Origin: Spirochaetales bacterium
GTDB taxonomy: Bacteria > Spirochaetota > Spirochaetia > SZUA-6 > DRHE01
DNA length: 23,310 nucleotides
Assembly (NCBI GenBank): GCA_023136785.1
Contig: JAGLQP010000001.1
Coordinates: forward strand, 1 to 23,310
Reading direction: 5' to 3'
The translations under genes were made by a program, and so were the position numbers. The notes under the pieces are model-generated. The model was given only the letters and a program-made list of their open reading frames with translations, searched no databases and had not been told where the DNA came from. Below are positions 13,585-14,771 of the stretch, in pieces; the first letter of the stretch is position 1, and each line of letters opens with the position of its first letter.

Positions 13585-13625
13585 CAGAAAAAAAGGGCCG
13601 TCCCACAATGGAGAACGGCCCTTTT
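13585..13625 (-). terminator. Strong intrinsic terminator of flaB
   Basis: On the minus strand an 11-bp perfect stem (AAAAGGGCCGT with ACGGCCCTTTT; plus positions 13615-13625 and 13591-13601) encloses a 13-base loop and runs into seven T residues. It starts about 39 bases after the flaB stop and insulates the downstream nucleotidyltransferase gene. Its opposite strand also has T residues, so it could work weakly in both directions. Confidence 0.9.
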
Positions 13626-13663: not shown

Positions 13664-14536
13664 CTATCGCAGCAGTTCGAGTACCGTTTGCGGCTTGATG
13701 TTGGCTTGGGCAAGCATGGCCATCGAGGACTGGACCAGGATCTGGTTCTTTACGAAGCTGACCATCTGCTCGGCCATATCCGTGTCCCGGATGCGGGACT
13801 CGGCAGCCTGCAGGTTTTCGGCGCCCACGGCCAATCCCTTCATCGCGTACCCCAGACGGTTCTGGTACGCTCCCATATCGGCCCGTTGCTTGTTTATCAG
13901 CTTCAGGGCCTCGTCCACCATCCCGATCGCCATGTTGGCGCGGTCGGGAGAGGAGATCGATATGAAGGTAGCCGTGTGCGGGGGTCCGTTGGGATTCTGC
14001 AATCCCAACCCTTGAGCGGTCATCGTACCGATGTACATCCGCTCGCGCTGGTCCATGTTTGCCCCGATGTGCAGCCACATGCTGGCTGTAACAACGTTCT
14101 CGCCGGTGAACCGGGCGAAGCGTCCGGTCAGAAGATTCATTCCGTTGAATTGGGCGTGAGAGGCGATGCGGTTCACCTCGTCGATCATGGAGGAGACCTC
14201 TACCTGGATCTGCATCCGATCTTCATCGGAATAGATACCGTTGGCAGCCTGGACAGCCAGCTCGCGGATTCGCTGCAGGATGTCCGATGTCGACTGGAGA
14301 TAGCCCTCAGCGGTCTGGATGAAGGAAATGCCGTCTAAAGCATTCTTCTCAGCCCGCTGGAGTCCCCGGATCTGGGCGCGCATCTTTTCGGATACGGCCA
14401 GACCGGAGGCGTCGTCCCCGGCGCGGTTGATCCGCATTCCGGAGGACAGCTTCTCCATGTCCTTGTCGATTGCCCAAGAATTGAACTTCTCCTGACGGTG
14501 GGCAAAGAGGGCACTCATGTTGTGATTGATAATCAT
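13664..14536 (-). CDS. flaB: Periplasmic flagellar filament core protein FlaB (flagellin)
   Basis: 290 residues with both conserved flagellin domains. The N-terminal part has [15 protein letters not shown], then [20 protein letters not shown] and [21 protein letters not shown]. The C-terminal part has [19 protein letters not shown] and [16 protein letters not shown]. The [10 protein letters not shown]-terminus and the short central region (no large D2/D3 insertion) are typical of spirochaetal FlaB, which forms the periplasmic filament core. There is no signal peptide, since it is exported by the flagellar type III apparatus. The ATG at 14536 has a strong ribosome site AAGGAGG. The leader carries likely CsrA sites and the gene ends in a strong terminator. 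It appears monocistronic. Confidence 0.97.
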
Positions 14537-14540
14537 TCAA

Positions 14541-14550
14541 TCCTCCTTGA
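14541..14550 (-). promoter_or_regulatory. flaB ribosome binding site, second putative CsrA contact
   Basis: Minus-strand TCAAGGAGGA places AAGGAGG five bases before the ATG. It also reads CAAGGA, matching the ARGGA core of CsrA sites, so a CsrA dimer bridging this and the hairpin about 16 bases upstream could block initiation. Confidence 0.6.
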
Positions 14551-14564
14551 TTGAAATATTTACC

Positions 14565-14580
14565 CGGACGTCCCTGTCCG
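14565..14580 (-). promoter_or_regulatory. Putative CsrA-binding hairpin in the flaB leader
   Basis: Minus-strand CGGAC-AGGGAC-GTCCG forms a 5-bp stem with a six-base loop exposing GGA; the stem extends three more pairs (two of them G-U) below. The segment GGACAGGGACGT matches 10 of 12 positions of the E. coli CsrA SELEX consensus RUACARGGAUGU. Its place 16 bases upstream of the Shine-Dalgarno parallels the B. subtilis hag leader. Confidence 0.6.
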
Positions 14581-14668
14581 AGCCCCAGGCGTGCCGGCCC
14601 GGGTTGAAGATTAAGCCTGTCTGAGTGCGAAATCTTAGTTTCCCACTTCAAAGCTCGAACTTCTCCTT

Positions 14669-14698
14669 TTACTAGTCGGAAGATTCAAAAAATTTCAA
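14669..14698 (-). promoter_or_regulatory. Candidate flaB promoter (weak)
   Basis: Minus-strand TTGAAA (14698-14693), an 18-base spacer and TAGTAA (14674-14669). A start near 14662 would give a leader of about 125 bases. No convincing sigma28 site (TAAA-N15-GCCGATAA) was found, so assignment is tentative. Confidence 0.35.
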
Positions 14699-14713
14699 AG
14701 CAGTTTCTTAAGC

Positions 14714-14739
14714 GACAAATAATTTTGACAAATAATTTT
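14714..14739. repeat. Perfect 13-bp tandem repeat between flaB and the thiamine pyrophosphokinase gene
   Basis: GACAAATAATTTT occurs twice back to back (14714-14726 and 14727-14739). The junction makes a TTGACA (14725-14730), but no -10 stands at the right distance. It is AT-rich and lies upstream of both divergent genes, so it could be an UP element or protein-binding site. Confidence 0.9.
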
Positions 14740-14742
14740 CTG

Positions 14743-14771
14743 TTGATCATGCGGCTCAAAGGAGATAAGAT
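14743..14771 (+). promoter_or_regulatory. Candidate promoter of the thiamine pyrophosphokinase gene
   Basis: TTGATC (14743-14748), 17-base spacer, TAAGAT (14766-14771). The start would be near 14778, about four bases before the ATG at 14782. Both hexamers match four of six consensus positions. Confidence 0.4.

Follow-up and report, generated by a model that had tools for sequence, protein, structure and literature searches.

The leader of the flaB flagellin gene in the window (the whole stretch of DNA that was analysed, 23,310 nucleotides long) is very probably a two-hairpin CsrA operator through both loops of which flaB would be repressed. This reading draws on the hairpins, on their covariation among relatives and association with flagellin genes, and on a genome that contains both csrA and fliW. 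In the proposed mechanism, each hairpin would display a GGA in a six-base loop, the second loop being the Shine-Dalgarno sequence itself; a CsrA dimer would occupy both loops and keep the ribosome off as long as unexported flagellin is abundant; and FliW, encoded beside csrA, would take CsrA away during FlaB export. The last two steps follow B. subtilis, C. jejuni and Borrelia, by analogy with which we infer CsrA binding and repression at the flaB leader in this organism. An earlier note on this DNA had proposed a CsrA switch here, and covarying hairpins tied to flagellin genes appear to bear that idea out. Switches of this kind are already known; here the organism is new, the comparative support is strong, a second hairpin joins the one noted earlier, and a copy before flgN is a new lead.

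The flaB gene is an open reading frame on the minus strand (13664..14536) encoding a flagellin of 290 aa (Flagellin_N 146.6 bits, Flagellin_C 87 bits). Directly 3' of it (13591-13625, minus strand) comes a strong hairpin and then T residues, as in a terminator. Hairpin 1 (14562..14583, minus strand), a putative upstream CsrA-type site identified by folding, leader comparison and covariation, is GCUCGGAC-AGGGAC-GUCCGGGU, with the GGA at 14573-14571 within the 6-nt loop; its eight pairs (14583-14562) confirm the earlier description of a 5-bp hairpin extended by three more pairs around a GGA in a six-base loop. Hairpin 2 (14536..14555, minus strand), identified by folding and stem covariation, has seven pairs and the hexaloop AAGGAG, which is the Shine-Dalgarno core recognised by sequence (14543..14548, minus strand); its outermost pair takes the A of the flaB start codon. 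The GGA site overlapping the Shine-Dalgarno sequence, CAAGGAGG (14549-14542), takes in the loop of hairpin 2 and its closing pairs, and CAAGGA begins 16 nt past the end of the inner 5-bp hairpin, as had been claimed. What had been overlooked is that a second hexaloop hairpin, likewise with a covarying stem, encloses the Shine-Dalgarno site. The distance from the GGA of hairpin 1 to the Shine-Dalgarno GGA (14546) is 27 nt, start to start. Immediately upstream of hairpin 1, a GC-rich extra hairpin with the loop CGGCAC (14584-14603, minus strand) is common to the window and to its closest relatives among the matches listed, L006 and L007, and is absent in L008.

Folding of a 141-nt leader piece gave a z of -2.55 relative to dinucleotide shuffles, 2 of 200 of which folded equally well, and pair probabilities over three folding windows lay between 0.79 and 1.0 in hairpin 1 and between 0.87 and 0.97 in hairpin 2. 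Both strands of the window together contain 1081 GGA triplets, 17 of them in hexaloops closed by 5 bp or more; in stem length, hairpin 1 (8 bp) ranks second among the 1081 and hairpin 2 is one of three with 7 bp. Rfam covariance models run at gathering level over the whole window returned one tRNA only and no family at the flaB leader; at 14450-14760 there was a single chance-level match (E 3.2). The earlier note had also reported that GGACAGGGACGT (14579-14568) matches the CsrA SELEX consensus at 10 of 12 positions. That count is correct, but as evidence on its own the match stands at chance level: seven window sites, both strands included, score at least 10/12, which leaves it without significance by itself, and it was rejected as evidence for a CsrA site.

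Leaders for comparison came from a FlaB search of genome contigs, from which the best 80 of 578 confirmed relatives were combined with the window to give 81 leaders, or 83 with two flagellin paralogues of its own genome; the leaders are kin, so that counts among them cannot serve as probabilities. In the region from 70 to 18 nt before the start codon, 68 of 81 leaders carry a GGA hexaloop closed by 5 bp or more, where shuffles average 0.5 (sd 0.6), and 77 carry one closed by 4 bp or more, where shuffles average 1.7. The loop GGA is retained in close relatives; its loss there had been named beforehand as evidence against a CsrA switch. Where the longest stem is taken as the rule, 79 of 83 leaders have their two GGA triplets 21-35 nt apart. 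At site 1, which was placed by longest stem and is thereby favoured for pairing, 57 of 68 distinct pairs form stems of 5 bp or more, and at site 2, which was placed by GGAGG alone, 38 of 67 do so; after swapping 3' halves among leaders these numbers fall to 14.2 and 7.3. Four more pairs beyond the two innermost are found in 25 of 67 cases at site 2, compared to 3.2 when 3' halves are swapped. The same loci also offer 57 control genes with GGAGG sites: a hairpin like that of site 1, with 4 bp or more, is absent from all of them, and a Shine-Dalgarno hexaloop stem of this length occurs in four.

An alignment of 74 of the 83 leaders (A1) omits five repeats of other rows and four others (L082, L084, L085 and the third flagellin of the window's own genome) that have no hexaloop stem of at least 3 bp at a GGA. 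Loops in A1 retain A-N-GGA-N while stems vary; the alignment was anchored on GGA, which is therefore invariant by choice, leaving the neighbouring A and C as the independent positions. Paired cells make up 82.0% of A1 compared to 62.1% after shuffling, and the covariation score is 0.496 compared to 0.165. Two-sided changes occur in all eight pairs of hairpin 1 and in four of six at hairpin 2. Of five measures compared with shuffles, two are only slightly higher, namely the number of pairs with two-sided change (12 against 10.6; 6 of 500 shuffles reach 12) and further pair types (43 against 40.1; 26 of 500 reach 43). RNAalifold on the alignment predicts hairpin 1 and not hairpin 2, so that support for the latter comes from the 3'-half swapping and the covariation in A1. 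One flagellin leader (L084/L189) has a perfect hairpin with no GGA in its loop and retains site 2.

Some 95 nt ahead of hairpin 1 stands a CCGA box (14676..14679, minus strand), a possible sigma-28-type -10 core that is conserved in the window and in L006, L007 and L008, the three closest among the matches listed; no TAAA-like -35 four-mer occurs 14-17 nt upstream of it in the window. From this box we infer that the flaB transcript starts near 14666, and a start downstream of 14580 is unlikely given the box at 14679-14676. Within 140 nt upstream, a TAAA, TAAG, CAAG or CAAA four-mer followed after 14-17 nt by CCGA is present in 50 of the 81 leaders compared to 3.5 in shuffles, a scan too short to reach the window's own CCGA box. 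This leader-wide pattern is in line with sigma-28 control.

The genome to which the window belongs (2.86 Mb in 745 contigs, 82% complete) contains one csrA (90.8 bits) and one fliW (133.9 bits) side by side on contig C195, so that the absence of csrA, which would have told against the earlier idea, did not occur. They are preceded by a frame resembling the end of flgL, within which the contig begins. The encoded CsrA has L4, R6, R44 and N55, residues that we take to have roles in RNA and FliW binding, and its nearest solved sequence is 5dmb_D, presumably from a FliW-CsrA complex. A FlgN search of this 82% complete assembly gave no match. Two of its three flagellin leaders are found by a covariance model of the hairpin pair (54.6 and 51.1 bits), and the third flagellin is without a canonical paired element. 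The two further flagellin genes lie in tandem on contig C9 (L004 and L005); one has the paired element and the other only GGCC-AAGGA-GGCC (a 5-nt loop, identified by eye) ahead of its Shine-Dalgarno site. Five more model matches in this genome (E at least 0.22), inspected by pattern rather than at exact match coordinates, yielded nothing convincing.

Applied to 296 Spirochaetota genomes, the model has matches in 124 (E up to 0.01, strict filters). Among 111 opened matches outside the window's own genome (29 loci, 80 regions and two more), the gene behind the match is a flagellin in 107, judged by the N-terminal motif, and flgN in four, FlgN being identified by Pfam for L185, L252 and L253 and by a family match at the same place for L198. 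Two matches (G126 and G165) were passed over because they nearly duplicate G019, and of those weaker than about E 1e-3 just G045:C28 and G104:C66 were opened. The model was trained on leaders of Spirochaetota, so flagellin matches are partly expected; the informative part of the survey is the near-absence of other genes together with the flgN matches. In 20 unmatched genomes one leader each was read, taken from the best flagellins listed: 15 have a GGA hexaloop hairpin with 5 bp or more, including all five leaders of inferred Borrelia-like identity, and no such hexaloop was found in the other five.

The distribution of csrA parallels that of flagellin. csrA is present in 267 and flagellin in 281 of the 296 genomes, and csrA is missing from all 15 genomes without flagellin compared to 14 of 281 with it (Fisher p 1.2e-17). 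The 15 flagellin-less genomes belong to two families, and the joint absence may represent just two losses. The shared absence fits the Campylobacter-based view that flagellin control is an old task of CsrA and FliW. Five of the 14 flagellin-bearing genomes without csrA are listed: four are MAGs 60-93% complete and the fifth is G215, which is 99% complete and has neither csrA nor fliW by these models, fliW being present in five compared genomes. Contrary to the expected absence, G215 has GGA hairpins at two of its three flagellins (L255-L257). One assembly gap could remove both neighbouring genes there, and their loss may also be recent.

These results can be set against explanations that dispense with CsrA. 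The hairpins could stabilize flagellin mRNA or keep the ribosome-binding site open, with the GGA of loop 2 being merely the Shine-Dalgarno sequence. G215, which retains hairpins without detectable csrA or fliW, and L084, in which the hairpin persists without GGA, both point that way; such a role is nevertheless unlikely because the loops keep A-N-GGA-N while stems change (with only the neighbouring A and C independent) and because all 15 flagellin-less genomes are without csrA. Still less probable is a DNA operator, in which a transcription factor would recognise the palindrome GGAC-N6-GTCC. In 38 of 82 leaders the inner stem does read GGAC/GTCC, but the loop is asymmetric, stem sequence varies with pairing retained and G-U pairs included, and the Shine-Dalgarno site stays 21-35 nt away in 79 of the 83 leaders (longest-stem rule), whereas the distance to the promoter box varies. 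With 17 GGA hexaloop hairpins of at least 5 bp and seven consensus matches of at least 10/12 in the window, a chance hairpin without function might also be imagined; conservation and covariation above those of shuffles and control genes make this hardly credible. A CsrA operator is the preferred reading of the flaB leader.

The element also occurs away from flagellin genes. It precedes flgN in five genomes, G014, G026, G037, G045 and G104 (L185, L198, L227, L252, L253), in each of which a CCGATA box lies upstream and csrA follows about 4.2-4.3 kb further on, on the same strand. More widely, at least 25 genomes have flgN and csrA on one strand with their starts 4.0-4.4 kb apart. The stem at site 1 before flgN is 3 bp in G014, G026 and G045, 4 bp with two G-U pairs in G104 and 6 bp in G037, and these short stems make the flgN reading weaker than the flagellin reading. 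Four of 30 opened flgN loci have the element (L227, L240, L241 and L239, at the last of which another start had been chosen and the element is visible on the overlapping L252), and the fifth case, in G104, comes from the covariance-model search. At the other 26 loci, where the choice of start was rough and one locus was cut by a contig end, the element was not seen; one of them (L233) shows just the Shine-Dalgarno hairpin. An element before flgN with csrA further on suggests possible autoregulation of the csrA operon. We put forward tentatively, at somewhat below even confidence, the broader view that CsrA in Spirochaetota is chiefly a flagellin regulator acting through an old paired-hairpin element and that in Brevinematales-like lineages it represses its own flgN-to-csrA operon likewise. 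Among the papers listed in literature searches, titles and abstract openings mention neither a phylum-wide paired element nor a copy before flgN, which is a weak indication because subscription journals are thinly covered. What is gained is a searchable covariance model and a pointer to a possible self-regulating form.

Several known systems resemble the window. In B. subtilis hag, CsrA is reported to cover the Shine-Dalgarno site and to be antagonized by FliW (PMC6529632); fliW and csrA are adjacent there, as in the window's own genome. The two-site layout of hag is listed in PMC4066749, and its likeness to the window is one of description rather than base by base. Among spirochaetes, CsrA of Leptospira is reported to shift the flaB3 and flaB4 leaders in gels, which present GGA in a hexaloop 6-7 nt ahead of the start codon (PMC8668096); each of those leaders has one hairpin site compared to two in the window. 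Overexpression of csrA in L. interrogans raised flaB1, flaB2 and flaB4 transcripts (PMC8668096), so that the sign of the CsrA effect may differ there. Sites near the Shine-Dalgarno sequence are described for flaB1 and flaB2 of T. denticola, as is a flgN-flgK-flgL-fliW-csrA cluster (PMC9481697) that the flgN-to-csrA arrangement of the at least 25 genomes resembles. CsrA of B. burgdorferi inhibits flaB translation (Sze 2011, as cited in PMC3757020, PMC8668096 and PMC4066749), and according to the citing papers its target is likewise a spirochaete flaB with sites around the Shine-Dalgarno sequence. The five Borrelia-like leaders (by their inferred identity) have a GGA hexaloop hairpin upstream, as in the window; it lies 48-54 nt from the start codon, further than that of the window, which has two hairpins 27 nt apart.

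C. jejuni flaA is a better architectural parallel than B. subtilis hag. Its leader is reported to present ANGGA in two hexaloops, of which the second lies on the ribosome-binding site, and both footprints and repression are described for it (PMC4894983). Paired ANGGA hexaloop stem-loops so placed, compensatory stem changes among relatives, a sigma-28 promoter (in the window a possible one) and non-flagellated relatives without csrA and fliW are all points of likeness to the present case (PMC4894983). The two GGA are 21 nt apart in flaA (PMC4894983) compared to 27 nt in the window, and C. jejuni belongs to another phylum; binding and repression have been demonstrated for its flaA, whereas for the window they are predicted. 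Within Spirochaetota, comparison of leaders, with covariation across many spirochaete lineages behind it, joins the single-species reports from Borrelia, Leptospira and Treponema into what is, by its sequence, one element.
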